This document shows, one piece after another, positions 194 through 64,000 of a stretch of 64,000 bases of DNA; the stretch's first letter is position 1, and every line of letters starts with the position of its first letter. This DNA is from a virus. Location of the stretch: IMG/VR virus record IMGVR_UViG_3300036799_000043, positions 47,055-111,054 of that record, one strand, 5' to 3'. A model generated the notes under the pieces. That model saw only the letters and a list, made by a program, of their open reading frames with translations, ran no database searches and was not told where the DNA came from. Position numbers and translations under genes: made by a program.

Positions 194-862
194 GTGACTT
201 CTCGACTTCGTATCGCCCTTGCATTCGCGCTACTGCTCGCTGTGGTGTTCCCAGCGGCGTCTGCGTTCGCGTGGACGTGTCAGCCGGGCGTAAAGGACAC
301 GCCCGCTAACGAGCAGGCAGGACTCTGCGTTTTGCATCCAACACCGACCCAAATCCCGACGACTGCACCTACTCCGCAGCCGACAGTGCAAACACCTGCA
401 CCGACCCCGCCGATTGTCGTCGTACCCACGTCAGCGCCGCCCGTGAGCGCACCGCCGCAGACCAATACGAGCAGCGCGCCGAGCTTTGAGAACATCTGCG
501 TCACGAGTGTGAGCGACAACGTGCAGCACACGGACATCGTGCGCACGAGCGACGCCAATGCGTATCTCGCGCAGCACGCTAACGCATATCACATGCCAGA
601 CATCGGCAACTGCGGACCGACAGACGTGTACTTGCAGACTGCAAAGCCGACTGTGGCGATCACGCCCGTCCCCGTCACAGCGACGCCAGTAGCAACTGTC
701 GAGTCGACGCCCGCGCCAACTGTGACGCCAGAAGCGACGCCGACTGCTACTGCTACGCCAGTTATGACGACGCCGACTGCGACGCCAGAAGTCGTCGAGA
801 CACCAGTACCCGCTGTGCCTGACACGGGCGACGGAACTGCCGCCGATGAGATCGCTCCTTAG
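194..862 (+). CDS. secreted Pro/Thr-rich stalk protein, possible sortase substrate
   Basis: A 222-residue protein starting at GTG, with a good ribosome site (AAGGAG) 9 bases upstream. Residues 1-26 form a signal peptide ending A-F-A. Two low-complexity stalks rich in Pro, Thr, Val and Ala flank a short globular segment (about 95-150) with cysteines. Near the C-terminus, residues 208-212 read VPDTG, which resembles LPxTG-type sorting motifs, but no hydrophobic helix or basic tail follows. The next gene overlaps it by 17 bases and encodes a sortase. The pairing suggests a cell-surface or virion-displayed protein processed by that sortase; this is inference, since the sorting signal is incomplete. 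Confidence 0.7.
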   Translation: MTSRLRIALAFALLLAVVFPAASAFAWTCQPGVKDTPANEQAGLCVLHPTPTQIPTTAPTPQPTVQTPAPTPPIVVVPTSAPPVSAPPQTNTSSAPSFENICVTSVSDNVQHTDIVRTSDANAYLAQHANAYHMPDIGNCGPTDVYLQTAKPTVAITPVPVTATPVATVESTPAPTVTPEATPTATATPVMTTPTATPEVVETPVPAVPDTGDGTAADEIAP

Positions 863-1313
863 CATCACCGCAGCGCTGCTTGTCGCGGTGCTCAGCGTGT
901 CGAGCGCCTACGCTGACGATCTGACTGTCTCGATCCCAGACATCAGCGTCAGCGCAGCGACAGAGCGACTGGGTGTCGTCGATGACGTGCTCAGCGCTCC
1001 AGACGATCCCGACTCGCTCGGCGTATTCGAGTTTGGCGAGCAGACGATCATTGCCGGTCACCGAGACTGGCAGTATCGTCTGCGCGCTTTCTCTCGCCTG
1101 GATCAGCTACAGCAAGGCGCAGAGGTCGACTTGAGTGACGGTCGCAGCTACAGCGTCGACTCGACTGCGGTGCTCGACGTAGACGACGCAGACGCGTGGT
1201 CGAGCTATCTGACTGGTGACGACTCGCTCGTACTCGTAACGTGTACAGGCCCGTTCTCCTTGAGTCGACACGAGTACTTGCAGCGCTTCGTCGTGCTCGC
1301 GTTGCCAAATTAG
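846..1313 (+). CDS. sortase (class D/E/F-like transpeptidase)
   Basis: A 155-residue exported sortase-fold protein. Residues 1-23 are a signal peptide (AYA/DD). The sortase triad is visible: His72 in AGHRD, Cys133 in LVTCTG, and Arg147 in LQRFVVLA, in canonical order and spacing. The enzyme is small, near the lower limit for sortases, and has no C-terminal membrane anchor. It starts inside the end of the preceding Pro/Thr-rich gene, so the two are translationally coupled and the upstream VPDTG protein is the obvious candidate substrate. Sortases are rare in phage genomes; a role in remodelling the host surface is inference. Confidence 0.85.
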   Translation: MRSLLSITAALLVAVLSVSSAYADDLTVSIPDISVSAATERLGVVDDVLSAPDDPDSLGVFEFGEQTIIAGHRDWQYRLRAFSRLDQLQQGAEVDLSDGRSYSVDSTAVLDVDDADAWSSYLTGDDSLVLVTCTGPFSLSRHEYLQRFVVLALPN

Positions 1314-20378: not shown

Positions 20379-20425
20379 CAGAGGTCACAGAATGGACGAA
20401 GTGCTCGAATTGAGTGCTTTTAGTC

Positions 20426-20454
20426 TTGCGCTCTAGTATGCAGCGCTGTATATT
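20426..20454 (+). promoter_or_regulatory. early-type promoter (copy 10)
   Basis: TTGCGC 20426-20431, 17 bp with GCAGCGCTG, TATATT 20449-20454. The GTCACA box (20384-20389) lies further upstream than usual. ATG after 6 bases. Confidence 0.85.
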
Positions 20455-20460
20455 TAGTAC

Positions 20461-20706
20461 ATGAGCAAGACAGTTTCAGCCACGACAGTCGCACGACTCG
20501 CAGAGCACAGCGCGATTCGCACCACGGGTGCTTTCGTTCATCAGATTTACGGTGGCCGTGGATCGATCAACGGTCAGACCAACTGCGGCCTGCGCAATGG
20601 CCGAAGCTCGCGCCGCGCGCTCGTCAACCTCGCTGAGGTGAGCGTCGACAAGCTCTGTCACAAGTGCTTCCAAGTCGAGCGAATCACGCGCGAAGCGGGC
20701 GAATAG
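20461..20706 (+). CDS. zinc-binding hypothetical protein, 81 aa
   Basis: Starts MSKTVSATTV. Contains a H..H..TNCGLRNGRSSRR...LCHKC arrangement similar to the C-terminal half of the 20118 product, suggesting the two are distant paralogues. Confidence 0.55.
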   Translation: MSKTVSATTVARLAEHSAIRTTGAFVHQIYGGRGSINGQTNCGLRNGRSSRRALVNLAEVSVDKLCHKCFQVERITREAGE

Positions 20707-21728: not shown

Positions 21729-23774
21729 TCAGTTCGCGATCAGATCGACCTCAGTCTCGACCTCGTGCTGCCACTTCGTGAGTGCCTTACGTCGATGCGC
21801 GTGCCAGAGCTTTGCATTTTCTCCAGGAGCTTCCCAGCGGCAGTCGCGCTCGACATTGACACAGCGTGGGTTTTCGCACATGTGCTCGACTGACAGTACC
21901 CGAGCTTTCATGAGCATCGCGACTTCGTTGAGATCGAGACCTTCCTTGACTGCGAGCAGCAGCGCGTAGACGAGCCATTGACGCCCCATATACGTACAGC
22001 GTGGACGACCGTTGCTGCCCTCCTGACTGAGTGAGTAGCTTGTCTCTGTACAGCCGTTGATACCGTACGGCCAGACGTGTCGTTTCCAGATCGCTAGTAG
22101 CTGCTCTGCGTCTCGTTGATCCGCACGTAGTCGACTACCTGTGATCCACTCTGGCATCGCTACAGGACCCGCTACAGGTAGCTTGTGTTCGACGATGGAT
22201 AGCGTCGCTTCGTCCTCTTCCAGGAACTTCTCCGCGTCTGCATCAAAAACCTCTGCATCCAACTCATCGCTGTACTGTTGCAGCGGTGCGAGTGCAGCCC
22301 GCTCTTGTGGTGCAGCGGCTTCGTCGTCGTCTAAGCCGCCCTCTATTCTCGGCGCTACTCTGACGTGCTCTCTGTGTACAGCAGCGCGAGTGATGTACGG
22401 CGCGAGGGATACGGCTTGCACGCCGGGTCTGCCTGCGACTAAGTAACCCTCTAACTGATCGAGCGTCACGTTGAGTACAAGCTCGCTCGCGCGCACTGCG
22501 AGTCCGGGTAAGTCTTTGAGAATATCCTCGCACCATTGACGACTTTGACGCGCGAGTGGACCGAGTCCCATGATGAGTGAAACCGCAGCGTTCGCTTGCA
22601 GCACAGTGCCCAAGTCTTGCGGGTCTTGCGACAGATACAGAATGCGCCAACCGCGGGCGCGCATCGAGCGAAAAAGGTCGTCCATCTCTGTGCGTCGAGT
22701 CTTGAGAAACGCCGCTTCCTCGAGGACGAGAATGACATCGTGCACGACTTCGGCTGCACGCTTGCACTGCACAATACCCGCGACACCGATCAACGGTGTC
22801 AGCTTTGGATTCGTGTAGCTGTTGCCGCTAAGGTGAATGATGACGGGCTCGTCACGGCTAAGCTCTGACACGAGATCGAAGTCATTGCCGAGTGATTCTG
22901 AGCACACACGCGACAGCGACTTGAGTCGGCGCAGCCACGTCTTTCTCGCGAGCGCTGGGACTTCTTCGTCCTCTTCCATGATGCGCTGACAGCGAGCGAT
23001 CATGTCTGGCCACGTGCGCTGTCTGTTCGCGCTGTCAATCTCCTCAAGCGCTTGAGAGATAGCGTCGCTCATCAACTGCGAGAAGAAGCCGGTACTTCCG
23101 GGTGACTCCGGCCAGATCGTCGGGATTGCTTCGGCGATCATCTCGCGATCACCGTCGAGCACGTTCCAGCCCAATCCCATACGAATGCGCCAGCGCAGCA
23201 CGCGCATGCCCATGTCTTCGGCTTCGTTCGTTGCTTCCTCAATCGGGTCGCTGCGATCAAAGCTCAGCACAACGACTTTGCGGCGCTTCCAGAAGCCAAG
23301 CGAGCGCATGATCCGCATCTTGAGTCCGATAGTTGGCTGCAAAATCATCGACACGACTGCGGTGCTCTTGCCGCTACCAGAGCCACCGACGATGAGTGCG
23401 TGCGTCTGATCGAGATACGTCATGACGCCGCCGACGTACCAGTACCAGGGCTGCACGAAAAAGTTACGCCGCCACGATGCGAAGCGTCGATGCCAGGGTT
23501 GTCGTCTGACGCGTATTGGGCGAACTTCCTTGGCGAGTTTCGATGTCACTGCAAAAGACATTCGCACTCGATTGATGACGAGCGCGAGCATGAGCCACAG
23601 CACGCCGAAGACGATGACGAAGCCAGCCCATGCGTCGACGCCAAGGTCTGCGAGATGCGTCAGGTCTTGATTCTGCCACGCGTCTTTGAGCGCGTCGACT
23701 GTCGGGCTTAGCTGCGACAGCGTGTCTGGTAGCTGTCGCAGCCCAGGCGCGATCTGATCGAGCCAGTCGCGCAT
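21729..23774 (-). CDS. VirD4/TraG-like coupling ATPase with C-terminal HNH-like segment
   Basis: 681 residues. A membrane segment at about 49-69 (AGFVIVFGVLWLMLALVI) precedes a P-loop ATPase: Walker A GGSGSGKST (130-138), Walker B VILVLEEAAF (347-356), and an LSQDP motif (381-385), as in FtsK/HerA-type DNA pumps and T4SS coupling proteins. After about residue 540 the tail contains EHMCENPRCVN (630-640) with a further cysteine, resembling the H-x-C-x-NPxC-x-N zinc motif of HNH3-type nucleases; a catalytic assignment is uncertain. Last gene of the minus-strand operon. Expected role: bring a substrate, probably DNA, to the channel. Confidence 0.75.
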   Translation of the reverse strand: MRDWLDQIAPGLRQLPDTLSQLSPTVDALKDAWQNQDLTHLADLGVDAWAGFVIVFGVLWLMLALVINRVRMSFAVTSKLAKEVRPIRVRRQPWHRRFASWRRNFFVQPWYWYVGGVMTYLDQTHALIVGGSGSGKSTAVVSMILQPTIGLKMRIMRSLGFWKRRKVVVLSFDRSDPIEEATNEAEDMGMRVLRWRIRMGLGWNVLDGDREMIAEAIPTIWPESPGSTGFFSQLMSDAISQALEEIDSANRQRTWPDMIARCQRIMEEDEEVPALARKTWLRRLKSLSRVCSESLGNDFDLVSELSRDEPVIIHLSGNSYTNPKLTPLIGVAGIVQCKRAAEVVHDVILVLEEAAFLKTRRTEMDDLFRSMRARGWRILYLSQDPQDLGTVLQANAAVSLIMGLGPLARQSRQWCEDILKDLPGLAVRASELVLNVTLDQLEGYLVAGRPGVQAVSLAPYITRAAVHREHVRVAPRIEGGLDDDEAAAPQERAALAPLQQYSDELDAEVFDADAEKFLEEDEATLSIVEHKLPVAGPVAMPEWITGSRLRADQRDAEQLLAIWKRHVWPYGINGCTETSYSLSQEGSNGRPRCTYMGRQWLVYALLLAVKEGLDLNEVAMLMKARVLSVEHMCENPRCVNVERDCRWEAPGENAKLWHAHRRKALTKWQHEVETEVDLIAN

Positions 23775-23775
23775 G

Positions 23776-23931
23776 TCAGACCCACGTGAAGATCAGCGCG
23801 ACAGCATCAGCGAGCAACGAAAACGTGCCGCTGATAAGCCGACCGATCAGACTGAGCGTCATGCGCGGTGAGAAGATCAAGCCAGCGACAAGTACTGCCG
23901 CGATGCCGATCAGAGTGATTGTCTGCTCCAT
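23776..23931 (-). CDS. small membrane protein of the T4SS-like operon
   Basis: 51 residues from the ATG at 23931, seven bases after AGGAGG, which decides this start over an upstream ATG. Two hydrophobic helices (LIGIAAVLVAGLIF and LADAVALIFTWV) joined by a short polar turn. Size and position fit a minor T4SS subunit, but no family assigned. Confidence 0.6.
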   Translation of the reverse strand: MEQTITLIGIAAVLVAGLIFSPRMTLSLIGRLISGTFSLLADAVALIFTWV

Positions 23932-23960
23932 ACTGCCACCTCCTTTCAACGTAGATGCCA

Positions 23961-24368
23961 TTACTCTACAGCATCCATTGGCTCGTGCAGAGTAGGCAGA
24001 TCGGGACCATGCCTGAATAGCCCTCTAGCAAGGCCGTAACGCACTGCGCGCTCGACAAGCACTGCTAGCGAGTACGCGGCGAAGTACAGCAGCAGAGCGG
24101 CGGCGACGAGCGCTCCCACCGCAACCTGCTGCGTTAGCTCGACAACGTGTGGGTCTGCGTTGATTGTCGGTGAGCCGTACATCGCTCGCCAGAGAACTGG
24201 GAACTGTGTCGGCAGTAGCGTCGTGAGCAGCGCGCAGATGATGACGTGTCTCGCCATTTTCGTGCGATTGAACTTGAATATAGCGGTGATGAGTAAGCCG
24301 GCTGACAGCCAGACGGCGACACCAAACACGAACCAATCGAGAAAATATGCCGAGTCAGACTTGAGCAT
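23961..24368 (-). CDS. three-helix membrane protein of the T4SS-like operon
   Basis: 135 residues with transmembrane segments at about 10-30, 43-60 and 83-110, and a basic then acidic tail. Shares one base with the VirB4-like stop, so translation is coupled. No motif of VirB8 or VirB6 is seen. Confidence 0.6.
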   Translation of the reverse strand: MLKSDSAYFLDWFVFGVAVWLSAGLLITAIFKFNRTKMARHVIICALLTTLLPTQFPVLWRAMYGSPTINADPHVVELTQQVAVGALVAAALLLYFAAYSLAVLVERAVRYGLARGLFRHGPDLPTLHEPMDAVE

Positions 24369-26629
24369 CAGGCAGCCACCATTTCAACGCGACGCGCGCG
24401 TTTTTCGTCTGGGTCTGTCGTGTACAGCGTTTGCTCCTCGGGGCACGCTTCAATTTTGAAGCTGACGACTCGTCGACCAATGCGCATGACCGCGTTGCGT
24501 ACACGAGCGGCGTCAGTGTCCCCAGGGTTCGGCTGGAATTTCATGACCTCAGCGCTCGCAGCGTCTCCCAACTGCAGCGCAGCAACGATGCTCGCGACTT
24601 CGTTCGGTGCCTGCGCGAGCACGATGAGCACTGGCGACATGCTGATTGCCTTGCGCGTTTGTTCGTTCTTGAGAAAGTCCCAGGCTTCTTGCGACGCGAA
24701 GACGCCAACAATGTTCGCGTTACGCCCTTGCGTCGCGACGCGCTCGATAAAGTCGCGTCCCGCGTGTGTCTTGGCGAGTACGTTCGCCTCGTCACAGCCG
24801 AAGATACGTGGTGTCAGTGAGTCAAGCTGTCGCGCCCACTCGTACTCAGCGATATACGCGAGCGCTTCTGCCTGCTGCTGCTGATTGAGACTTGCCAAGT
24901 TGTAGCAAATAGCGTCACTCTCGACGTATGGGATGTCCAGCGGGTCAGTGACGACGATGTAGTCTCCGCCGCATGCGCGCATTAGCGGCCAATAGTCGCC
25001 GTGCTTTCTCTCGCTCAGATGCGGCTTGAGATCGATCAGCGTGAACGGCAGCCCAGAGCGCACGATGAGCATCTGGATTAGAAACGTCTTGCCAGCGCCA
25101 GTCGCGCCCAGCATCGCGATCATCTTTGCGTATAGCGCTTTGTCTTCGATGTCGAGCATGACGACTTCTTGTGCGCCGCGCGCAGTGCCGAGCACGAAGC
25201 CGTTATTGCGCAGGCCAGACTGCCCGAATGGATGCACTGCAGCAACAGTCTCGCCGAGGTATGGTCGTGTCGGTCCCAATGGCGGTAAGCCGCCGATCGG
25301 CAGCGTTGCCCAGCGCCCCTGCATGTGCTCGAAGGTTGCTTCGCGAAAGATCGCATTTGCTTTGCGTAGACGGTTCTTGACACGCGGTGCGAACGCTTTT
25401 GGCATTGTCAGCGCGAGTGTCACGCGCTGCACGCTGTCCTCGTTGCGCTTGAGCTTCGCCTCGACGTACTGCAGATCAGCGAGCGCGTCGCGATGCTCTG
25501 TTGCTGCGGTTGGAAGCATGCACGCGCCTTCAAACCACTCCATGATCTTCGTCACCCACGCTGCGTCGTCAGGCTCGAAGAACAGACCAATATCAACTGG
25601 CAGTCCAGACACGATGTACATGATCCACGCGACGACGACGTTACGTGGAAAGTAGCGCACGACGATTGTCACCCAGTCCGTGTTGTCGATACCAAAGCTC
25701 GTCGTCGAGTGCGGGAAGTACTTACGTGTGCCGAGCACGCTGTCGAGAATGTCGTGCATCTCGTCGAGCTTCGTTTCGCGCACTTGCAGTCCAGCGTCAG
25801 TCAGCGCGCCAGTCACATCGCGCACGTGCTCGACGAGCTTGTCAGCAGACGGTGCTGAGCACACGACGACGATTCGGCGACGAGTGAGCGCTACTGCACG
25901 CTGACGCATCCAGCGCTCGATAGCAGCGCGCAGAAACGCGAAGCGACTGCCTACTGGAGGCATTGTGTGCTCGACGAGCCAGTCAGGGTCTTCTGGTCGA
26001 CACTGCGCGACGATCTGCACTGGGTACGTTGTCGCCTTGATACCAGCAGTAAAGCCTGCCCAGCGTGACGCTCTGTCGCTGTCGGTCATAAGCTCGATAG
26101 CGCCTTGTGCGTCGACTGGAATCATCATGCGGTGCGGTACATGATGCTCCCAGTACGTAGTCTTCCAGGGCGTGTGCTGCATGATGCGCCAGAACGGTGG
26201 TTCGCGTACGAACGTGAGCGACTCGCCCTGCAGTCGCATGCGCAGCATCTTCTCCGCATCGACTGGGAAATAGGTCGCACCGCGTGGGTCGTCGTACACG
26301 TCATACACGGCGTCGCTGCGTAGAAACCAGTGCTTGAGCGCAACGAACAGCCATAGGTGCATCCAGCGACCGCCGGGATGCACGATCACGAACGACATGC
26401 CGAGTGTCAGCACAACGACACGCGCGAGCATCATTGGCGAGATCAGCGTGCCCTCCTGAAACGGCGTATCGTCGAGATGTATCCAATTGTCGAGGCCGAA
26501 CGTCAGCCCGACAGTCAACAGGGTGGCAGCTACCTGCCACCCTGTTGCATCGAACGGTTTGCGAAGCGGTATCCAGGGCGGGTCGTCACCGAGACGCACT
26601 GGAACATAGCACTCATCGGCGCGCATCAT
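24368..26629 (-). CDS. PrgI/VirB4-like conjugation ATPase
   Basis: 753 residues. N-terminus: hydrophobic segments (about 32-48 and 66-98) like a PrgI/VirB3-type anchor fused to the ATPase, then a long VirB4-like N-domain. ATPase: Walker A GATGAGKT (508-515), Walker B IFGCDEAN (609-616), a TQGRNANIVGVFASQ sensor segment and the RKAISMSPVLIVLAQ stretch typical of TraC/VirB4. It powers assembly or substrate transfer in type IV secretion. A length near 750 and the PrgI-like head match Gram-positive systems. Confidence 0.85.
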   Translation of the reverse strand: MMRADECYVPVRLGDDPPWIPLRKPFDATGWQVAATLLTVGLTFGLDNWIHLDDTPFQEGTLISPMMLARVVVLTLGMSFVIVHPGGRWMHLWLFVALKHWFLRSDAVYDVYDDPRGATYFPVDAEKMLRMRLQGESLTFVREPPFWRIMQHTPWKTTYWEHHVPHRMMIPVDAQGAIELMTDSDRASRWAGFTAGIKATTYPVQIVAQCRPEDPDWLVEHTMPPVGSRFAFLRAAIERWMRQRAVALTRRRIVVVCSAPSADKLVEHVRDVTGALTDAGLQVRETKLDEMHDILDSVLGTRKYFPHSTTSFGIDNTDWVTIVVRYFPRNVVVAWIMYIVSGLPVDIGLFFEPDDAAWVTKIMEWFEGACMLPTAATEHRDALADLQYVEAKLKRNEDSVQRVTLALTMPKAFAPRVKNRLRKANAIFREATFEHMQGRWATLPIGGLPPLGPTRPYLGETVAAVHPFGQSGLRNNGFVLGTARGAQEVVMLDIEDKALYAKMIAMLGATGAGKTFLIQMLIVRSGLPFTLIDLKPHLSERKHGDYWPLMRACGGDYIVVTDPLDIPYVESDAICYNLASLNQQQQAEALAYIAEYEWARQLDSLTPRIFGCDEANVLAKTHAGRDFIERVATQGRNANIVGVFASQEAWDFLKNEQTRKAISMSPVLIVLAQAPNEVASIVAALQLGDAASAEVMKFQPNPGDTDAARVRNAVMRIGRRVVSFKIEACPEEQTLYTTDPDEKRARRVEMVAA

Positions 26630-26630
26630 G

Positions 26631-26879
26631 TCAGTGCGGCATCGAGACGGTCTGTACGCCGCCGACAGCTTTGAGTAGCAGATTGAACACGTCGTTTGGA
26701 CGCACGATGAAAATCAGCGCGAGCACAAGGCTACCGATCTCCGTCAGCGCGAAGGCGAAGCCCTTGGCGCCGCCCGTTGCGACTTTGTAGCCGAGCAGCA
26801 GCAGCATGACGACGATGATGGCAATGCCGACAAGCTGCAGTGTTCCGGCAAAATTGATAACGGCACTTTCTGGTTGCAT
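26631..26879 (-). CDS. VirB2/TrbC-like two-helix membrane protein
   Basis: 82 residues, two transmembrane helices (about 13-30 and 43-60) with a glycine-rich basic loop (GYKVATGGAKG) between, the layout of VirB2-type pilins and small T4SS channel subunits. No cleavable signal peptide. Directly upstream of the VirB4-like gene, the usual gene order. Confidence 0.65.
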   Translation of the reverse strand: MQPESAVINFAGTLQLVGIAIIVVMLLLLGYKVATGGAKGFAFALTEIGSLVLALIFIVRPNDVFNLLLKAVGGVQTVSMPH

Positions 26880-26937
26880 CGTTTGTTATCTCCAGAACGC
26901 TCGTACGAGCAGGGCGAATGTAGACGCGAAGTACCTC

Positions 26938-27264
26938 CTACTCCTCATTGGGAATTTCAGCGCTGACATCGCAGCGCTCGTCGTTTGCGAAGCACGGCGT
27001 ATCGCTCATCTTTGCGAGCACGTGCACAGTGCATTGCGGTGTGTCGTCGTCGATAGGCGTCAGCACGACCCAATTAGGGTCGTCAGAGAGCCACACCGTG
27101 ACGTTTTCGTACGTCGTGAAGTCAGCGCAGCCGCCCGGCGCCTCAGCGCGATAGCGACCGTCAGTCAGCGCTAGACCAAAGCGCGTTGCGTCGACCGTGT
27201 CGGGCGTCGTGTAGCCCGTAGTCGGGAACAAGCTCTGCGCGAGTAGCAGTAAGGCGAAGATCAT
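26938..27264 (-). CDS. secreted small protein of the T4SS-like operon
   Basis: 108 residues. Residues 1-17 look like a signal peptide. The exported part is acidic and contains four cysteines (in GGCADF, PQCTV, TPCFAN, ERCDV) that could form two disulfides. ATGA-coupled to the lysozyme gene. No homologue recognised. Confidence 0.6.
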   Translation of the reverse strand: MIFALLLLAQSLFPTTGYTTPDTVDATRFGLALTDGRYRAEAPGGCADFTTYENVTVWLSDDPNWVVLTPIDDDTPQCTVHVLAKMSDTPCFANDERCDVSAEIPNEE

Positions 27265-28253
27265 GGGCGTGCGAAGCGTGGGTTATGACTCGCGTAGAAA
27301 CCAGTGAAAATGTCGTTGATCTGCACGTGCGTACCTCCTGCATCGATCATTTTTCCGTTTCCAATGTACATACCTTCGTGAGTCGGATTGGCACCGCAGT
27401 CAGTGCACGTGTTGTCGAAAAATACGATATCGCCAGGTACGATCTGCTCGCGCGTGAGTGGCGTTGCCCAGAGAATCTGCTGTGTCGTCACACGTGGTGC
27501 GCTGATGTGCTCGTGAGCAAGCACGTTCTGCACGAAGCACGAGCAGTCGATGCCGTTACGTGAGCAGCCACCGAACAGATACGGCACGCCCAGCCACGAC
27601 GCTGCGTAGTCGAGCGCGTCGGCGAACCACGCGTTTGGATGCGCCTGTGCGACAGCGAGTGCGGCTTGTGACATGAACGCGAGATACGCGCCAGTGTGAT
27701 TCGGCCCACACGACACCGCGTACGTGAACCACGGGCAAAAGCCATGCTGCGCGAGCACAAATGCCGCATGCGCGTTGACTGCCGGAGTCTTGAGCGCGTC
27801 GACGCCACCGAACTGGGCTGCGTTGCGGTCGTTTATTTGCCATAGGCCAGTGTCGACACTCCCGTCGTTATTGTGGTGTTGCAGCGCGGGATCGCCGTCG
27901 TGATTCTCAGCGAGTGAGACTGCGACAGCTTCAATCAGTGCGTCACCAGTGAAGCCAGCTTGCTCCGCGAGCACAGCGCGCTCGACGACACTGGTGATGC
28001 CTGATGAGCCTGCAGCGATCACGACGGGATTGCCATTGATCGCGACATCGTTGCCTGTGCGCGTGACAAATTGCGGCCCAAACTGCGAAGCAGCCCACCA
28101 CTGGCCCCACGGCTGAGCGAATATCGATTGCGTCACACCAGCCGTCTCGACGAAGACGAAGCAGGCAATACCAGCGAGCAGATACAGCGCGTAACGCACG
28201 ATCTCATCGCCAAAGAAGAACGCGACGACAGAGCGAACAGCGGCGAGCATCAA
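27261..28253 (-). CDS. VirB1/CwlT-like lysozyme plus NlpC/P60 endopeptidase
   Basis: 330 residues. Membrane anchor at about 21-36. Domain 1 (about 85-205) is a lysozyme/transglycosylase fold: catalytic Glu116 in SLAENHDGD and the substrate loop DTGLWQIN (134-141). Domain 2 (215-330) is NlpC/P60: Cys237 in GIDCSCFVQ and His292 in THEGMYIGNGKMI. This bifunctional arrangement is that of CwlT of ICEBs1 and other Gram-positive conjugation hydrolases, which open the peptidoglycan for the channel. A phage endolysin is the alternative, but the operon and the anchor favour T4SS. Confidence 0.85.
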   Translation of the reverse strand: MMLAAVRSVVAFFFGDEIVRYALYLLAGIACFVFVETAGVTQSIFAQPWGQWWAASQFGPQFVTRTGNDVAINGNPVVIAAGSSGITSVVERAVLAEQAGFTGDALIEAVAVSLAENHDGDPALQHHNNDGSVDTGLWQINDRNAAQFGGVDALKTPAVNAHAAFVLAQHGFCPWFTYAVSCGPNHTGAYLAFMSQAALAVAQAHPNAWFADALDYAASWLGVPYLFGGCSRNGIDCSCFVQNVLAHEHISAPRVTTQQILWATPLTREQIVPGDIVFFDNTCTDCGANPTHEGMYIGNGKMIDAGGTHVQINDIFTGFYASHNPRFARP

Positions 28254-29473
28254 GCGGCTCCGTAGGCGGGTCTGTACGGGCGATTCGTTGCGGCAGAGCC
28301 AATACCAGTACCGTTGTAGCTACCCATCTGCTGTATCGGGTTGTGCGTTACGCCAGACGCAACTGCGCCTCCTGTCGTGCGAAACGAATTGACGCCCTGC
28401 TGAGCACGTCGAAACAGGAACATAAGTCCAGCTAGCCCGAACATGCTGCCAGCGCCGAGTCCCATCGGAGCGAAGATCGTCACGGCTTTGATCGCCATGA
28501 ACAGCACAGCGAGCTTGACGAGCACGGTCGCACCACTGTCAACGCCGTTGAAAAAGGTAAGTACGCTCGACGCGATGCTCAGACAGATGACGACGATTGG
28601 CTGGCCGAACAGCCAACCGAAGAACGAACGAAAGAGCAGCACGCCGTAGCTGCGCGTGACAGAGAACGCGAACAGCACACCTGAGATTGGCATGACTGTC
28701 GTCGTCAGAATCAACACGCCATCGCGCACGATCATCTTGACTTCGAGGATGAGCAGCACAATGGCGTAAATGAGACTCGTCAGCATACTTGAGAAGAACG
28801 TTGCGGGCACGCCGATGATGCCAGGGGGGCCCTCAGGCTGAGTGACACCTGGAATCTGCGGCTGAGGCGGCATCGTCAGTGAGTCCGCAGAGAACGTCAT
28901 GAGCGATGGATCGCCAAACTGAGCGCTGAGCGCGTTGCAGATGTCGACGCTGTGTATCGCGATGCTGTCGCTAAACATTGCGATGAGAAAGCCAACAACC
29001 ATGATTGGTAACAACTGCTGCATAGAAGTCGTACCCATCAGATTGCCAAACGCAAGCTGCACACCGACGTACACGATGCCGAGCAGAAACAGTGACAGGG
29101 CGACGAGACGCGCGACACCTCTGAGCTTTGCTGCGGTGTCGACGTTGATGAGATTCCACGGCGTGTTCGTGAAAATGTTCGGCCCTTTGAGCATCGCAGA
29201 CGCCATGTTGACGGGTACGCTCGCGTGATCGAACTCAGTATTTGCGACGAGAAAGTCCATCATGCCGACTGTTGCTTTGGGATCAGGCGATGGCGGTGTG
29301 ATGTTGACTGTCACGTTCGCGGGTGCAGACGGCGCCGGGTTTTGCACGATTGGATTGCCCGATCCAGGTGCAGGAATCGGCACGGGTTCGATGCCTGCTG
29401 GCGCAGCATTTGCAATAAGAGTCGTCAGAGTAAACGCGCAGATTGCAAGTGGCAATGCCATTCGACATTTCAT
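28250..29473 (-). CDS. VirB6-like polytopic membrane protein
   Basis: 407 residues; the ATG at 29473 is chosen because it gives a signal peptide (MALPLAICAFTLTTLIANA). A Pro-rich linker follows (PVPIPAPGSGNP), then about six transmembrane helices between residues 130 and 370 (LVALSLFLLGIVYVGVQLAF, MVVGFLIAMF, LIYAIVLLILE and others), then a polar tail with Gly/Asn/Thr. This is the VirB6/TrbL-like channel layout of Gram-positive T4SS. First gene of the minus-strand operon. Confidence 0.7.
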   Translation of the reverse strand: MKCRMALPLAICAFTLTTLIANAAPAGIEPVPIPAPGSGNPIVQNPAPSAPANVTVNITPPSPDPKATVGMMDFLVANTEFDHASVPVNMASAMLKGPNIFTNTPWNLINVDTAAKLRGVARLVALSLFLLGIVYVGVQLAFGNLMGTTSMQQLLPIMVVGFLIAMFSDSIAIHSVDICNALSAQFGDPSLMTFSADSLTMPPQPQIPGVTQPEGPPGIIGVPATFFSSMLTSLIYAIVLLILEVKMIVRDGVLILTTTVMPISGVLFAFSVTRSYGVLLFRSFFGWLFGQPIVVICLSIASSVLTFFNGVDSGATVLVKLAVLFMAIKAVTIFAPMGLGAGSMFGLAGLMFLFRRAQQGVNSFRTTGGAVASGVTHNPIQQMGSYNGTGIGSAATNRPYRPAYGAA

Positions 29474-29548
29474 GGTCGAGAAGTGTACACGCCGATGCGC
29501 CGTATTACTACGCAAACATCGGCAATACACACGTGTTACTCTCGCGGC

Positions 29549-29731
29549 GTGACGAGTGGCGATGGACTGCTGACCGTGCATGAGGTTGCTCAGCGCTTGA
29601 GAACGTCAGACGAGACAATCAGACGTTGGCTACGTAAGCGGCGTATACGCGGGACGAAGTTGTCGGCCAGAGGTAGATCAGGCTGGCGTGTGACAGAAAG
29701 CGAGCTACGACGAGTGCTAAGCTCTGACTGA
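29549..29731 (+). CDS. excisionase/MerR-type helix-turn-helix protein
   Basis: 60 residues. LLTVHEVAQRLRTSDETIRRWLR (7-29) is a winged helix-turn-helix of the HTH_17/excisionase type; RGTKL and GWRV form the wing. GTG at 29549 lies 6 bases after an extended -10 (TGTTACTCT), so probably leaderless. Transcribed divergently from the T4SS operon (75-base gap) and next to a long inverted repeat: it could be the regulator of that operon or a recombination directionality factor. Confidence 0.75.
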   Translation: MTSGDGLLTVHEVAQRLRTSDETIRRWLRKRRIRGTKLSARGRSGWRVTESELRRVLSSD

Positions 29732-29856: not shown

Positions 29857-29881
29857 TTAGGTCACAAAAGTGGCGAAAGTA

Positions 29882-29910
29882 TTGCGCTCTAGTATTCAGT
29901 CGTGCATACT
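29882..29910 (+). promoter_or_regulatory. early-type promoter (copy 11) with upstream box
   Basis: TTGCGC 29882-29887, 17 bp, CATACT 29905-29910; the box is degenerate (CAGTCGTG). GTCACAAAAGTGGCGAAAG at 29861-29879. ATG after 9 bases. Confidence 0.75.
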
Positions 29911-29919
29911 GAGAGAGTC

Positions 29920-30300
29920 ATGAGCACAGCACGCGACAAAGCCCGCGCAGAACTCGCAGAGTATCTCAAGGGCAGCAAGCACGAGATCGCCAATCCTCTC
30001 GCAGAGCCAACACTCGAACAGCGCGCGATGCGCGCACAGTCGATGCTCAGTTTCGTGTCAGGCGTTGCAGTGCGCTTCGCAAGCAACGTCGACACGACAG
30101 ATCGCTACACGCGCTCGCTCGTCGAGCGCACTGAGCGCGACATTCGCGACATCCGCGATCTGTACAAGAGCGAGCTTGGCGAGTGCCGACGCTGCAAGCA
30201 TGCACTCGTCGGCGAGATCGTCGAGATTGTGTCTGGCGTGACTGCAAGTCGTTTCTACGCGCATCTCGATTGCGTCGAAGACGGCGACGAGCTTGCGTAA
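29920..30300 (+). CDS. zinc-finger hypothetical protein, 126 aa
   Basis: Starts MSTARDKARAEL. Helical N-terminal two thirds; C-terminal CRRCKHALVGE ... H-x2-C (HLDC) gives one zinc site. The stop is followed directly by the AACAGATGTCACA box. Confidence 0.6.
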   Translation: MSTARDKARAELAEYLKGSKHEIANPLAEPTLEQRAMRAQSMLSFVSGVAVRFASNVDTTDRYTRSLVERTERDIRDIRDLYKSELGECRRCKHALVGEIVEIVSGVTASRFYAHLDCVEDGDELA

Positions 30301-38081: not shown

Positions 38082-39731
38082 ATGGTAGTCGAGCAGTACG
38101 CGCCCGATGATGGGGGTTTCGACCGACTCTCGCTGCTCGAACAGCTTGAAGCTGACTACGCGTGGTGGCTCTGGCGACTGTTCCCGCAGTACTTCACAGA
38201 CGAATCTGGCAACGTCATTCCAATGGCAGACCATCACCACGACGCGTGGGAGTGGTTCTGGGAAATGCCAGATGCACGCCCGCGTCCGCTGATCTTCTTG
38301 CTGCCGCGTGGTGGCGGAAAGTCGACGACTGTTGAGCTTGGCGTGGTGTCGCTCGGCTGTCGCAACAAACGCAACTACGTGCTGTACGTGTCAGCGACGC
38401 AAGAGCAAGCTGACGATCACGTCACGAGCATTGGCGCGATGCTCGAATCACGCCGTCTAGAGATCGCGTACCCACAGATGTCAGATCGCTATGTCAACAA
38501 GTACGGCTCATCGAGAGGTTGGCGGCGAGATCGTCTGTGGACGAAAACGGGCTTTGTAATCGATGCGCTCGGACTCGACACTGCGAGTCGTGGCGTAAAA
38601 CTCGAGGATCGACGCCCAGACGTGATCGTGTTCGACGACATCGATGAGGATGGAGATACCGACAAAGAAGTGCGCAAGAAGGTGCGCATCATCACTCGTC
38701 GCTTACTGCCTGCTGCTGCGTCAGGTGGTAACACCGCAATAATCTTCTGTCAGAACCTCGTGCATGAGCGTTCGATAGCTGCTCTGCTGTGCAACCGCCA
38801 CCCTGATCCCAAGGGTGCGCAGCTTGACGACTTTCTCGTTGACAGACGCGTGATTGGTCCGATACCTGCTGTGCGCGACGCGGACGTACGCTTTCAGAAT
38901 AACCACTTTGAGCTAATCGCTGGCGAAGCGACATGGGCCGGTCAGTCGATTGAGGTCAATCAACGTCTGATCGATACAGACGGCTACTCGTCGTGGAAGC
39001 AAGAGCGTCAGCACGACGTAGAACCACCCGCTGGCGGCATGTTCTCGCATCTCGACTTTGAGGCTATGACTGTCGAGATGGCTGACGTACCGCCACTCGT
39101 GCGTATCGTCGGTGCGCTCGATCCCGCGGTGACGAATACAGACGACAGTGACTCTATGGCGCTGCAATTCGACGGCATTGGTGTCGACGACTGCATCTAT
39201 CGTCTGTGGTCGTGGGAGCAGCGTTCGACACCTGAGACAGCGATGGAGCTAGGCCTGCGGCGCTGCGTTCACTTCGGCGCAGATGCGCTCATCATCGAGA
39301 CAGATCAGGGCGGTGATCTGTGGCTAGAGAAAGCACCAGAGACATGGCTGCATCTCATCGCGAAGTGTGACGGTCGCGAGACAGATCAAGACTTTGCACC
39401 GCACTCAACAGCAGACGCGTGTCCGTATCTCGTGCACATCACTGAGAACTCGATCTTTCCAAGCGTGATCGGTATGAAAGCTGGCTCGACGCAGATGCCA
39501 AAAGCGCACCGTGCGTCACTCATGCTGCAGGACTACGAACGCCCGAATCAGATACGTCACGTGCGCAGTGGCACACATCAGGTGCTACGTGCTGCGCTGA
39601 ATCGCTTTCCGAAAACGAAGCCCCTGGACCTGACCGATGCCTCATTCTGGGCATGGAACGAACTGCGCAATCCGTCTGTCGTGCCGAGCTTCGTGCTGCA
39701 AGCTGCAGTCAGCGGGTGGTCACCGCGCTGA
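38082..39731 (+). CDS. terL: terminase large subunit
   Basis: 549 residues. ATPase: Walker A LLPRGGGKSTT (about 73-83), Walker B VIVFDDIDE (182-190) with a GNTAIIFCQN motif III. Nuclease: GALDPAVTNTDDSDS (about 344) gives the first catalytic Asp, IIETDQGGD the second and a later DASFWAWNEL region closes the RNase-H-like fold. Motor that cuts and translocates genome DNA into the prohead. Downstream hairpins end the transcript. Confidence 0.92.
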   Translation: MVVEQYAPDDGGFDRLSLLEQLEADYAWWLWRLFPQYFTDESGNVIPMADHHHDAWEWFWEMPDARPRPLIFLLPRGGGKSTTVELGVVSLGCRNKRNYVLYVSATQEQADDHVTSIGAMLESRRLEIAYPQMSDRYVNKYGSSRGWRRDRLWTKTGFVIDALGLDTASRGVKLEDRRPDVIVFDDIDEDGDTDKEVRKKVRIITRRLLPAAASGGNTAIIFCQNLVHERSIAALLCNRHPDPKGAQLDDFLVDRRVIGPIPAVRDADVRFQNNHFELIAGEATWAGQSIEVNQRLIDTDGYSSWKQERQHDVEPPAGGMFSHLDFEAMTVEMADVPPLVRIVGALDPAVTNTDDSDSMALQFDGIGVDDCIYRLWSWEQRSTPETAMELGLRRCVHFGADALIIETDQGGDLWLEKAPETWLHLIAKCDGRETDQDFAPHSTADACPYLVHITENSIFPSVIGMKAGSTQMPKAHRASLMLQDYERPNQIRHVRSGTHQVLRAALNRFPKTKPLDLTDASFWAWNELRNPSVVPSFVLQAAVSGWSPR

Positions 39732-48316: not shown

Positions 48317-49591
48317 ATGTCCAAAAAGCGACAATTCGACTTGCGGATCCAGGCTTCAAGCCCGCAAGAGATCGCAGAGCGCGTCAGCGTTGAGATGTAT
48401 CGCGACGCGATGCAGGCTGGCATGTCTCTCAGCGCGTGGATGGAGCGACTCTGCCCGACCGACCCCGCCGACATGCGCATCGGCAACGACGCGTTCTCGC
48501 GCGTGCTCGCTGCGAAGGATGTCTACACGCGCAGCATGCCAGAATCTGGCATATGGGCTGACACGTGGAGTGATGTCTTCGAGGATCAGCCGAGTGATCG
48601 ACTCATCGGACTCGAATGGGTTGCGCGTCGCTGGCGCGAAGCGAAGACGAGCAAGCCAGCGATTTATCAGACGCAGGGTCAGCGCGATCTGTACATGGCG
48701 TCTGACTACCCGCCTGGTACGAACGCACGCCCGTACGTCGACGCTGCTGAGCCACGCTGGACGCAGATCGCGCCGGCGATCCCGCTGGATCGTCTCGTCG
48801 CGCTGACAACGCCGATCACGGGTATCGACTATCGCGCGGTGTATCTGCAGAACGTCAACCCTGACCAGAAGCGCATGGTTCGTGTCGGTGAGGCCACCGA
48901 ACCCCCGCGCATGAAGCTCATCACGACTGCGCATCAGATCAACCTCTTCAAGTATGGTCGAATCCTGGAGGCGTCGTACGAGGTACTGCGTCGACAGCGA
49001 CTTGATCGCATCGCGATGGAAATCGCTCTCATGGCGATCCAGGCCGAGGTTGACAAGGTTGCGACAGTCATTGACATCATCCTCAATGGTGATGGCAACG
49101 CGGGTACGTCAGCGACGAACTACAACCTCACGACGATGGACCCGACCGCGTCGACGACAACGCCTGCACCGCCATACAACTTGACCGTGCGTGGCTGGTT
49201 GAACTTCAAGGCGCAGTTCCAGAACCCGTACCAACTGACGACAGCGCTCGTGCAGCGTGACACCGCTGTATCGCTGCAGATGTTGAACATGGGCAGCGCC
49301 AACGTCATGCTGACGCAGATTCAAGCCGCGTCGGGCTTCGGTGGCTTCGAGGCCATCAACCCGTCACTACGCGACAACGTTGCGCTCGGCTGGACCTCTG
49401 ACGCACCGCCACTCAAGGTGCTCGGTTTCGATGCACGTCGCGCGATTGAGCGTGTCGTCGAAGTCGGCTCGAACATTCAAGAGGTCGAGCGTCACGCGAC
49501 GACTCAGACGCAGGACCTCGTCATGACCGAAGTCGAAGGCTACGACGTGCTCGATCCGTTCGCCACAGCCGTACTGACACTCACCGCGTAA
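48317..49591 (+). CDS. major capsid protein
   Basis: 424 residues. Long helical N-terminal arm, then QNVNPDQKRMVRVGEATEPPRMKL, the E-loop/spine region, and KVATVIDIILNGDGNAG with the HK97-fold-like P-domain features; C-terminal VEGYDVLDPFATAVLTL. Position after decoration gene and before connector genes agrees. Largest copy-number virion protein expected. Confidence 0.85.
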   Translation: MSKKRQFDLRIQASSPQEIAERVSVEMYRDAMQAGMSLSAWMERLCPTDPADMRIGNDAFSRVLAAKDVYTRSMPESGIWADTWSDVFEDQPSDRLIGLEWVARRWREAKTSKPAIYQTQGQRDLYMASDYPPGTNARPYVDAAEPRWTQIAPAIPLDRLVALTTPITGIDYRAVYLQNVNPDQKRMVRVGEATEPPRMKLITTAHQINLFKYGRILEASYEVLRRQRLDRIAMEIALMAIQAEVDKVATVIDIILNGDGNAGTSATNYNLTTMDPTASTTTPAPPYNLTVRGWLNFKAQFQNPYQLTTALVQRDTAVSLQMLNMGSANVMLTQIQAASGFGGFEAINPSLRDNVALGWTSDAPPLKVLGFDARRAIERVVEVGSNIQEVERHATTQTQDLVMTEVEGYDVLDPFATAVLTLTA

Positions 49592-53031: not shown

Positions 53032-54504
53032 ATGGGCCAGATCGCATTTGGCGTCATCCTGCGACCAGGAACTGTACCCCAGATTCCTGGTGGCTACACA
53101 CGTTTCACTACGTCGCAGAGCATCGCGCTTGGCGTACGCGGTCTGGTTGGTATCGTTGCGCGCGCTGACGCGGGCGATGTCAACATGCCGAAAATTTGCT
53201 ACAGCGTCGACGACACGGTGCGCTACTTCGGCAACAACAATGGCTTTGCACCGCTCATCGCGCAAGCTCTTGCTGGCGGTTCAATCGCCGCGTACTGCTC
53301 GCGTGCAGGTACTGGCGGCACTGCTGCGGTGCTCGTACTCAACAACGACACTGGCTCGCCTGGCACGCCAACTGTCACACTGACAGCAAAGTCGGCTGGC
53401 TCACGAGCGCTGCCAGTCACGATCCGCAGTAGCGTGACACAGCCTGGCACGTTCGAGATCGTCGTGTACGAGGCGGGTGTCCCGCTCGAAACGAAGAACG
53501 TTGGTAGCGTCAATCAAGCGAGCGCATTCATTGCGACGATCAACGCTGCAAACACGGGTTCGAGCTACTACACAGCGGCTCTGACAGGCGTCGCTAATGA
53601 TCCACTCTCGCTCGTAACGCAGGTTGCGCCGACGACCGTAGGCACAAACCCGACTGTCGATGCGACAGCAATGGCAAATGCACGTACTGCTCTGCGTTCG
53701 TTCGCATGGTTCACGCTCATCGAAGACAGCGAGGACCCAGTCGAGCACATCGCGGGCGCAGCGTTCATCGACCAGTGCATCTCTGACGGTCTGCGTCGTA
53801 CCGCGTACTTTGGTCAGAACATCGCGAACGTGACGCTCGACACGATGCTCACGACCATCGCGACAATCAACGACCCGGCTGTCGGCTACGTCACCAACGA
53901 CTTTGCGACAGCGACTGGTACGATTGCGGGTGCGCAAGCTGCAGCGCGTTACGCTGGCATTCTGTCGACGATGCTGACGCATCAGACGATGGCTGGTCGA
54001 CAGATTCCAGATGCGACGATGATCCCGCACGATCTCGTGCAGAGCGACATCATTCGCGCACAGAACGGCGGTGCATCTGTGTTCATGCTCGATCACCGCC
54101 GACGCATCGTCACTGGCAAAGAAGTCAACACGCTCGTGAACCCAGCGTTGCCACCCGTGTGGGCAGAGGCGCTCGACGCGGCGTGGCAGCGCTGGGGCCG
54201 TACAGTACGCGCGTTCACCATCGTTGATGATGTGATGTTGTCGATGCTGGATGTGCTGTTCGATCCTGATCCCGATGCGCGACCTCGCCAGAACAGCATT
54301 GGCTTGAACTTCTTGCTCGCAACGGGTCAGACAACGCTCAACAAGTACGTGCCTGACTCACTGACGACAAACACGAAGCTACTGCTTGATCCAGCGGTAG
54401 CCGCTGTCGCTGGTACGTACGCGTTCAAAATCGACCCATTCGAGGACCTCGGAGGCGTCGACACGATCATCGTCAAACTCAACACCAATCAGGCCACGAG
54501 CTAA
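53032..54504 (+). CDS. contractile tail sheath protein
   Basis: 490 residues. Starts with GVILRPGTVPQIPGGYTRF, the common sheath opening, then Rossmann-like and insert domains, and ends with the C-terminal domain GRTVRAFTIVDDVMLSMLDVLF and YAFKIDPFEDLGGVDTIIVKL. Position before the tail tube gene is canonical. Shows the phage is myovirus-like. Confidence 0.85.
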   Translation: MGQIAFGVILRPGTVPQIPGGYTRFTTSQSIALGVRGLVGIVARADAGDVNMPKICYSVDDTVRYFGNNNGFAPLIAQALAGGSIAAYCSRAGTGGTAAVLVLNNDTGSPGTPTVTLTAKSAGSRALPVTIRSSVTQPGTFEIVVYEAGVPLETKNVGSVNQASAFIATINAANTGSSYYTAALTGVANDPLSLVTQVAPTTVGTNPTVDATAMANARTALRSFAWFTLIEDSEDPVEHIAGAAFIDQCISDGLRRTAYFGQNIANVTLDTMLTTIATINDPAVGYVTNDFATATGTIAGAQAAARYAGILSTMLTHQTMAGRQIPDATMIPHDLVQSDIIRAQNGGASVFMLDHRRRIVTGKEVNTLVNPALPPVWAEALDAAWQRWGRTVRAFTIVDDVMLSMLDVLFDPDPDARPRQNSIGLNFLLATGQTTLNKYVPDSLTTNTKLLLDPAVAAVAGTYAFKIDPFEDLGGVDTIIVKLNTNQATS

Positions 54505-62154: not shown

Positions 62155-63801
62155 ATGGTTATGGACCCGCAGTCTCCCATGTATATCGATCCGACGCAGA
62201 CAACGCCGGACGCCATACTCAACAGGCTACTGCTCACGTCACAACTGCTCGGTGGACTCGACAACTCGGTGGGAGCATGGGACTACGACGTGCTGCGGGT
62301 GTTCTCGATTGAACTTGCGCAAGCAGCGTTTCTGCCACAGAACCAATTCAAGCGTGTGTTTTCTGATACAGCGACTGGCAGCGATCTCGACAAACAAGCT
62401 GAGCAAGTCGGTATCGAGCCACGACTACCGGGTACAAACGCGTCTGGCTTGATTCAGATCACAGGTACTGCTGGCGCAACGATCCCAATTGGCACGCGCG
62501 TTGCGACAAACACCGCACCCGCTCGAACTGCGACGACAGACGAAGCCGTGACGATCCCAGTCGGTTCAACAGTCGCGGGCGTGAGCGCGACCGATCAGTC
62601 TGTCGGCATAGCAGGAAATCTGCCTGTAGGCGCGTACACGCGCATTCTCGACAACGTAGTGGGTGTGCAGTCGATCACGAACTCAACAGCGTTCACGGGC
62701 GGTACAGACCCGGAGGGCAACGCTGCACTGCAAGCTCGCATCAGTCAAGCGAAGAAAGAGCGTGGCGCGTCTGCGAACAGAGCCGAGACGCGCACGACAG
62801 CGCTCGGTGTCGCTGGTGTTGGCGGTGTCGAAGTTATGTACGCGAACGGTGGCTCACCGCCTGTACCGCTTGGTGAGATGCGCGTCACGCTTATCGACGC
62901 AACGGGTCAGCCTGCTTCACCGACGCTCGTCGAGAGTGTGCGCGATGCACTCAGTGAACCGTGGCGCATTGTCAGCGAAGCAGAAACACTCACGCTGTCA
63001 GCGGGCGCTGTCGTCGACGCAACGCAAGTCGGCTCCATCGGCACGTCAGTCGAGCTACCGCCAGCGTCGAGCGCAGAGATTGTGCAGTCGCGCATCGATC
63101 TCGTGCTGCCTCAGGGCGGTATCTACGAGCTACTCCCGCGCATGAAACGTGGCTCATCTGTCGGCGCAGGCAATCTCGTGCAGATTGGCGCATGGGACCT
63201 GATTGCTGCGGCGTGGTGTAAACAGTCACCACTCAGCACTGTTGACGCTCTGTACACACTCGATCACACAGCTATTCCGACGAGCTTCGACAACGTGTAC
63301 GTCGGTGACTTTTTCGCGAACCTGCTCGATCAGATCGAGCTACGTATCATCAGGCAGACTGCAGACGCGACGACTGACTTGTGGGTCGATGAGGTGTTTT
63401 ATCGCTCTGCGATGCAGCGCGCAGATATGGACCAGGCGCTACCTGGTTTCTTTCGTTTGCGCGTACAGCCAGCGGCTAACGTGCCAGTCGACGTACATGT
63501 CACGCTCACGTATGTGTCTGGCGCGACACCTGCATCAGTCAACGCAGCGATCAGAACAGCACTCGGCGGCCCGCCTGTCTCGACGAGCGCTGGCGGCTAT
63601 CTGACATCGATCCCATTCGGCACTGGACTCAATCAAGTCGTGCAAGTTGGTGCGATTGGCGATGCGATCTTCCGAACAACAGGCGTCGCTAGCTACGACT
63701 TCTCGACGCTGACAGTCAACGGTGCGCAGGCGAACATCACTATTTTACCAGAGCAACGCGCGACACTGCGCGATCTCGTCATCAATGGTGCATCTGCATG
63801 A
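62155..63801 (+). CDS. baseplate J-like protein
   Basis: 548 residues. Characteristic J/gp47 organisation: SDLDKQAEQVGIEPRLPG, IPIGTRVAT, AGNLPVGAYTRIL, and a C-terminal long beta region with ADMDQALPGFFRLRV. Wedge component that triggers sheath contraction. Overlaps the last gene. Confidence 0.85.
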   Translation: MVMDPQSPMYIDPTQTTPDAILNRLLLTSQLLGGLDNSVGAWDYDVLRVFSIELAQAAFLPQNQFKRVFSDTATGSDLDKQAEQVGIEPRLPGTNASGLIQITGTAGATIPIGTRVATNTAPARTATTDEAVTIPVGSTVAGVSATDQSVGIAGNLPVGAYTRILDNVVGVQSITNSTAFTGGTDPEGNAALQARISQAKKERGASANRAETRTTALGVAGVGGVEVMYANGGSPPVPLGEMRVTLIDATGQPASPTLVESVRDALSEPWRIVSEAETLTLSAGAVVDATQVGSIGTSVELPPASSAEIVQSRIDLVLPQGGIYELLPRMKRGSSVGAGNLVQIGAWDLIAAAWCKQSPLSTVDALYTLDHTAIPTSFDNVYVGDFFANLLDQIELRIIRQTADATTDLWVDEVFYRSAMQRADMDQALPGFFRLRVQPAANVPVDVHVTLTYVSGATPASVNAAIRTALGGPPVSTSAGGYLTSIPFGTGLNQVVQVGAIGDAIFRTTGVASYDFSTLTVNGAQANITILPEQRATLRDLVINGASA

Positions 63802-64000
63802 GTCGACCACGTTCAATCTACTTTGGTCACATGAAACCAGGCATGACTGGTTCATGGGCACGCGTGCTCGCTGATTCACAGAAGACCCCATCACTCGGCT
63901 CGCTGACGAGCTTTTGGCCGGCAACGTTCACGTCGATACAGACAGCGCTCAATTTTTTCATAACAAATGGCGCTATCCCGGTACTCGACTGGAACTCATG
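63798..64000 (+). CDS. tail/receptor-binding region protein (partial)
   Basis: Truncated by the window end. Starts MSRPRSIYFGHMKPGM; the phrase NGAIPVLDW near residue 60 hints at a glycoside-hydrolase-like barrel, but too little is visible. Position after the J-like gene fits a tail fibre or spike. Confidence 0.45.
   Translation, partial: MSRPRSIYFGHMKPGMTGSWARVLADSQKTPSLGSLTSFWPATFTSIQTALNFFITNGAIPVLDWNS

Follow-up and report, generated by a model that had tools for sequence, protein, structure and literature searches.

We analysed a stretch of 64,000 nucleotides, here called the window, from the metagenomic virus record IMGVR_UViG_3300036799_000043 of IMG/VR. The record is 111,054 bp long, and the window comprises its positions 47055-111054, i.e. 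the last 64 kb; the other 47 kb was read stretchwise under the labels L002-L004. Our subject is a run of eight genes in the window that an earlier note, made from the sequence alone, had described as a type IV secretion system (T4SS) operon of the Gram-positive kind, situated inside a tailed-phage genome. Both parts of this description stand, as homologies of the individual components and virion genes are found on the same record. The eight consecutive open reading frames (ORFs), all on the minus strand, run from 29473 down to 21729; they overlap or are separated by short gaps, all eight frames are open and tightly packed, and plus-strand phage genes flank them on both sides on one contig. Judged from the homologies described below, this operon is very probably an intact set of monoderm-type T4SS genes. 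We refer to its products as P8 to P1, with P8 encoded first.

Components of the operon

P4 (24368..26629, minus strand) is a VirB4 ATPase by NCBIfam, BLASTP and HHalign, with a predicted N-terminal extension of two transmembrane (TM) helices. Its NCBIfam matches are conju_CD1110 (4.7e-12), TraC-F (4e-10) and VirB4_CagE (1.3e-8), BLASTP finds the VirB4 of an Embleya plasmid (2e-10, 27% identical), and an HHalign comparison with 72 VirB4s, which was repeated without Bacillus phage G (see below), gave 99.8% (E 1.4e-29) over 411 columns. The protein is without about 100 residues that other VirB4s have between Walker A and Walker B. P4 had been called a PrgI-like/VirB4 ATPase. The VirB4 part is confirmed; the PrgI part found no support, in that the N-terminus has two predicted TM helices and no profile match to three PrgI references or one SCO6880 reference.

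A second ATPase, P1 (21729..23774, minus strand, 681 aa), is VirD4-like, i.e. of the type IV coupling protein (T4CP) class, and has an N-terminal TM helix, a helical insert between Walker A and Walker B, and an HNH-like Cys motif at the C-terminus; the TM helix and the insert come from secondary-structure prediction and are of low confidence. In HHalign, P1 matches VirD4 (97.0%, E 9.4e-11) ahead of VirB4 (95.7%, E 9e-9), with FtsK matching in the Walker A segment only, and its score of 90 compares with at most 21 for shuffled controls. These results support, although more weakly than for P4, that P1 belongs, as the second ATPase, to the HerA/FtsK class and is closest to VirD4 and not to FtsK, in agreement with the VirD4/TraG-like ATPase that had been proposed. 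The C-terminal 140 aa of P1 contain a motif, VEHMCENPRCVN...N, that resembles HNH_3-type endonucleases, with the third His seemingly absent. The HNH matches of this region are weak (phrog_6254, 0.011; phrog_1872, 0.097), and we treat the putative HNH-like tail as a lead, not as a result.

A packaging motor of the FtsK/HerA kind, which the earlier note had named as a competing identity for the two ATPases, was considered and rejected. Both proteins group with VirB4 and VirD4 and not with FtsK, given the long P4-VirB4 alignment and the restriction of the P1-FtsK match to Walker A, and a separate terminase large subunit (TerL) is encoded at 38082..39731 on the plus strand (phrog_38, 5e-41). With its own TerL, the phage has no need of P1 or P4 for packaging; a PHROG label 'terminase large subunit' (phrog_2666) was discounted in view of this separate gene.

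The first gene of the operon encodes P8 (28250..29473, minus strand, 407 aa), a polytopic membrane protein of VirB6/TrbL-like character with a signal-peptide-like N-terminus and about seven hydrophobic segments. By phmmer (2.5e-5), it matches proteins whose genes directly precede that of VirB4 in T4SS loci of actinobacteria, and some of these relatives match Pfam TrbL, weakly. The HHalign match to VirB6/TrbL-like proteins is of moderate strength (88.6%, 24% identity over 162 columns), with a score of 50, while 30 block-shuffled controls did not get beyond 23, and it supports the VirB6-like channel protein of the earlier description. P7 (27261..28253, minus strand, 330 aa) is a predicted membrane-anchored protein with a lysozyme-like SLT_3 domain (Pfam, 5.3e-16) and an NLPC_P60 endopeptidase domain (7.3e-20), so that the lysozyme plus NlpC/P60 hydrolase recognised previously is confirmed. 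It matches hydrolases within T4SS loci of Firmicutes and actinobacteria (phmmer, 8e-18 to 1e-11) and, by its domains and these relatives, is a wall hydrolase of the VirB1/CwlT type.

The remaining four products, all encoded on the minus strand, are small. P5 (26631..26879, 82 aa) is a membrane protein whose two helices agree with the VirB2-like two-helix protein that had been predicted, but its likeness to VirB2 itself is weak (Pfam TrbC/VirB2, PF04956, E 0.0066, under the curated cut-off); a VirB2/TrbC-like pilin is a possible, weak assignment. P6 (26938..27264, 108 aa) has a signal-peptide-like start and is predicted to be secreted, P3 (23961..24368, 135 aa) has about three hydrophobic segments, and P2 (23776..23961, 61 aa or 51 aa) has a single TM helix. 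None of these last three, the candidates for a VirB8-like protein of the NTF2 fold, has a family match in profile scans (Pfam, NCBIfam).

No relaxase had been noticed in the window, and this result extends to the whole record. Pfam scans of the called proteins gave no relaxase family, the Replic_Relax model had no match at E<=1, and a HUH motif scan of the longer ORFs found none. Because no relaxase was found, classical conjugation is disfavoured as far as the sequence goes, and the idea of a phage able to conjugate is not supported.

The phage genome and the control of the operon

In the window, PHROG matches identify TerL, portal, major head (48317..49591, plus strand; phrog_3922, 2.6e-34; 15 viral relatives), tail sheath (53032..54504, plus strand; phrog_279, 1.5e-23), tape measure and baseplate wedge proteins. 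Because of these matches, among which the sheath corresponds to a contractile tail, we class the virus as a contractile-tailed phage (myovirus).

Divergent from P8 lies a small gene (29549..29731, plus strand, GTG start) for a DNA-binding protein of 60 aa with an HTH_17 domain (excisionase/MerR-like; Pfam, 6.3e-11), which is probably the local regulator of the operon. The divergent intergenic region of 75 bp (29474..29548) is without a copy of a promoter-operator that occurs throughout the phage. About 27 copies of this promoter, which carries the palindrome TATACAGCGCTGTATA across its -10 region, serve genes around the record, many of them with a start codon approximately 37-39 bp downstream. 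On the operon strand of the intergenic region, the best operator-motif score is -6.8, versus more than 13 for real copies. Plus-strand copies are located at window positions 1316, 5685, 14214, 15117, 17311, 18485, 19663, 20425, 29881, 30327 and 33389, window 41907 and L003:2505 hold copies on the other strand, and there are others besides in the record. The copies to the left (20425..20470, plus strand) and right (29881..29926, plus strand) of the operon are each within 1.5 kb of it. Together the copies form an operator network across the phage, which would be compatible with a repressor. Because the operon has its own divergent HTH_17 gene and no phage-wide operator copy, it appears to be separately controlled, and we infer that it is a separately switched unit.

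In codon usage, the operon is indistinguishable from the rest of the record. Its codon usage has a distance of 1.64 from the record average, with 105 of the 131 other contiguous blocks farther away, and GC content at third codon positions (GC3) is 0.675 in the operon versus 0.659 in the record. Pfam gave no insertion sequence (IS) element, integrase, transposase or partition gene among the record's called proteins, and no convincing att-like repeats flank the operon.

The two ends of the record share a repeat of 214 bp that is 97% identical (L002:1-214 versus window 63787-64000) and comprises the starts of two paralogous genes. The gene at the left end encodes a protein of 1696 aa with laminin-G and fn3 domains; the two end genes are paralogues of the tail or adhesin type, and it is probably here that the assembly broke. 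A sister phage record (G018, 65.6 kb), whose head protein is 70% identical, is colinear with the window phage from portal to baseplate and has a homologue of the last complete window gene immediately next to homologues of L002 genes; therefore, our record probably represents a circular or permuted genome that was broken at the end duplicate. The operon was not seen in G018. As a marker of kinship, TerL proved poor, in that its relatives (L005-L021) have little else in common with the phage.

Several other genes of the record encode surface-related or secreted proteins. A sortase (window 888-1313, plus strand; Pfam, 3.8e-12) stands beside a Pro/Thr-rich protein (window 194-862, plus strand) that has VPDTG near its C-terminus and no membrane tail, and the pair points to a Gram-positive host and to display of proteins on the surface. 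A PLD-family protein that is secreted or lipoprotein-like (L004:5887-6543, plus strand; PLDc_2, 2.8e-21) is of a type that sometimes accompanies conjugation loci. There is a second, lone minus-strand gene for a secreted protein (L003:15771-16349), with weak SLT (0.0027) and LGFP (0.01) matches, and the phage also encodes a member of the low-affinity iron permease family (PF04120, 1.8e-47, within window 242-41691). When the major head protein was used to look for the host, neither an Actinomycetota sample (397 genomes) nor a presumed Patescibacteria sample (380 genomes) gave a match.

Proposed function and alternative explanations

We propose, with a probability of roughly one half, that the operon encodes a genuine phage-borne, relaxase-less, single-membrane T4SS that moves a substrate across the host envelope. 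Inside a cell that is infected or carries the phage, the operon would be expressed from its own switch, P7 would open the cell wall, P8 and the small membrane proteins would form the channel, P4 would provide the power for assembly and transport, and P1 would act as receptor and recruiter of the substrate. The substrate would be chosen by the phage, as an effector protein or as DNA without a classical relaxase, and would be exported over the host envelope, perhaps into neighbouring cells. In this reading, the machine is neither one for DNA packaging nor a classical conjugation module. That active export is its function we put forward tentatively, at slightly under even odds, and we favour it over passive exclusion because both ATPases and the hydrolase have been kept, none of which a passive exclusion protein would need. 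More speculative, and rather unlikely in our estimate, is the wider proposal that a tailed phage, while carried, exports its genome or an effector to neighbouring cells by a relaxase-independent T4SS, which would serve it as a weapon or as another way to spread, and that this arose more than once in contractile-tailed phages, namely in the window phage and in phage G.

Several observations weigh against the export machine. Neither VirB3/PrgI nor VirB8 turned up and the pilin is weak, which may leave the channel incomplete. The lead of VirD4 over VirB4 among the matches of P1 is only moderate, and the AlphaFold models of P1, alone and with 17 distant VirD4s, were poor, with predicted local distance difference test (pLDDT) values of 37 and 45. 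Finally, the cassette as a whole had no homologue in IMG/VR, INPHARED or PLSDB, with pattern and profile scans of IMG/VR (the pattern scans being of low sensitivity) and tblastn at E<1e-3 for phages and plasmids.

If the T4SS instead passed the phage genome itself between cells, in a carrier or lysogenic state, the phage would be conjugative, with a relaxase too divergent to be recognised or with the HNH-like tail of P1 as the nicking activity. VirB4, a VirD4-like protein, a VirB6-like protein and a VirB1-type hydrolase are indeed near a minimal set for conjugation, the palindromic operator found throughout the phage would fit a carrier state under repression, and the C-terminus of P1 is weakly HNH-like. 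However, this would have to be reconciled with the three negative relaxase searches, with the fact that no ParA, plasmid Rep or integrase was seen, and with an HNH-like motif that apparently is without the third His, and we consider it unlikely. A similarly low probability applies to superinfection exclusion, plasmid exclusion or envelope takeover, in which the membrane complex and the hydrolase would alter the envelope and block phages or conjugation without exporting a substrate. Rich in membrane proteins and equipped with a wall hydrolase and a regulator of its own, the operon resembles a moron that is expressed separately, and the genes for a sortase and a PLD-type lipoprotein elsewhere in the record point to remodelling of the envelope; yet one or two small membrane proteins are normally enough for exclusion, and the two large, costly ATPases would be left unexplained.

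Other explanations deny the operon a function in the phage, or a place in its genome. It might be a hitchhiker, i.e. a stretch of actinobacterial or Patescibacteria-like T4SS that was recently inserted and does nothing for the phage, which would fit with its absence from the related phage record and with the failure to find phage relatives of the cassette. Among phage records that share TerL or the head protein, many of which are fragments, there was no P4 match and no convincing full-length P7 match. VirB4 relatives in genomes are mostly from Actinomycetota, and P4 matches 72 of 287 genomes that are presumably Patescibacteria versus 2 of 397 in the actinobacterial sample, with E-values that depend on genome size. 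However, a maximum-likelihood tree of 66 VirB4s puts P4 on a very long branch (4.6), without a firm position, outside the sampled clades of both groups, and for this reason no recent donor is visible. With the phage-like codon usage, the intact frames, and no transposase or convincing att-like repeats, a recent insertion seems quite improbable. Least probable by far is an assembly chimera of a phage and a conjugative element. The metagenomic origin and the terminal repeat of the record could point to such an artefact, but GC content and codon usage are uniform across the operon, the phage-wide promoter-operator copies stand close by on both sides, gene order elsewhere matches that of the sister phage, and the isolate phage G likewise combines phage and T4SS genes. 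The separate integrative and conjugative element (ICE) that had also been envisaged finds no support as far as the sequence goes, given the phage-like codon usage and GC content, no integrase, relaxase or partition gene, no convincing att-like repeats at the flanks, and the comparable cassette of phage G.

T4SSs are usually seen as machines of plasmids, ICEs and bacteria. The word 'phage' is absent from a 2025 review of the superfamily (PMC12857230), and we found no description of a phage-borne T4SS in the literature searched, mainly open-access papers. The T4SS is a known kind of machine; what is unusual is its setting, one in which such systems go unrecognised. If phages do use T4SSs for export or transfer, the boundary between transduction and conjugation needs revision, as do typing rules that read VirB4 plus VirD4 as a plasmid or ICE.

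Comparison with known systems

In its component types (VirB1, VirB4, VirB6 and VirD4) and its single-membrane nature, the operon resembles the MPF_FATA and MPF_FA systems, such as those of pCF10, pIP501 and Tn916 (PMC12857230), but it is phage-borne and has no detected VirB8, PrgI/VirB3 or relaxase. Actinobacterial plasmid and ICE T4SSs, for example that of the Embleya plasmid (L046), likewise have VirB4, VirD4, a VirB6-like protein and an SLT plus NlpC/P60 protein together, and actinobacterial T4SS loci contain homologues of P7 and P8. The Embleya cluster differs in having a replication-relaxation protein, whereas the window operon has none and sits in a genome that encodes virions. The chromosomal T4SSs of Patescibacteria, which are mostly without a relaxase, are described as co-opted for non-conjugative work (PMC12102498). 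Like the window operon, they usually lack a relaxase and have monoderm-type components, with lysozyme or peptidase genes near virB4; they combine these components with VirB2-like pilins, for which P5 would be a weak counterpart (PMC12102498). On the other hand, they are chromosomal and belong to epibiont bacteria, and the presumed Patescibacteria sample held no clear match for P1, P7 or P8, with P4 outside the clade.

Further candidates for T4SS-bearing phages were not accepted. The Thermoanaerobacterium plasmid pTHETHE01, considered as a phage-plasmid with a T4SS, was rejected on account of no annotated virion genes in two stretches, Tad-type pili and replication-relaxation genes. We also left aside the VirB4-bearing records of Streptococcus phi-SgaBSJ and of fecal 'Bacteriophage sp.' contigs, as a linkage to virion genes is not shown for them and they look ICE-like.

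Bacillus phage G, which surfaced with the Embleya VirB4 as query, is comparable. Its run gp153-gp156 (L077:12195-17759) consists of TrbL (gp153; Pfam, 1.8e-11), a small protein, VirB4 (gp155; HHalign 100%, E 9e-62) and VirD4 (gp156; HHalign 99.8%, E 3e-30); in GenBank, only gp155 is noted as 'VirB-like', and gp156 is labelled 'MsbA-like'. Both phages have a contractile tail, both carry VirB6/TrbL-, VirB4- and VirD4-like genes that form a single run apart from the virion module (the tail sheath gene of phage G is about 15 kb from gp153-gp156), and no relaxase is assigned beside the run in phage G. The differences are that phage G is an isolated 497-kb jumbo phage of Bacillus megaterium with a complete genome, that an NlpC/P60 hydrolase was not seen in its run, and that the proteins are distant (HHalign 68.7% for P4 versus gp155, and 1.5% for P1 versus gp156). 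Because of this distance, common descent of the two as a phage cassette is not shown by the sequences. Given the comparable set in this isolate, we take phage-borne T4SS machines to be real, and Bacillus phage G makes their role testable in a harmless host. Since this isolated phage has TrbL, VirB4 and VirD4 genes together, it shows that T4SS genes in a tailed phage need not be an artefact.

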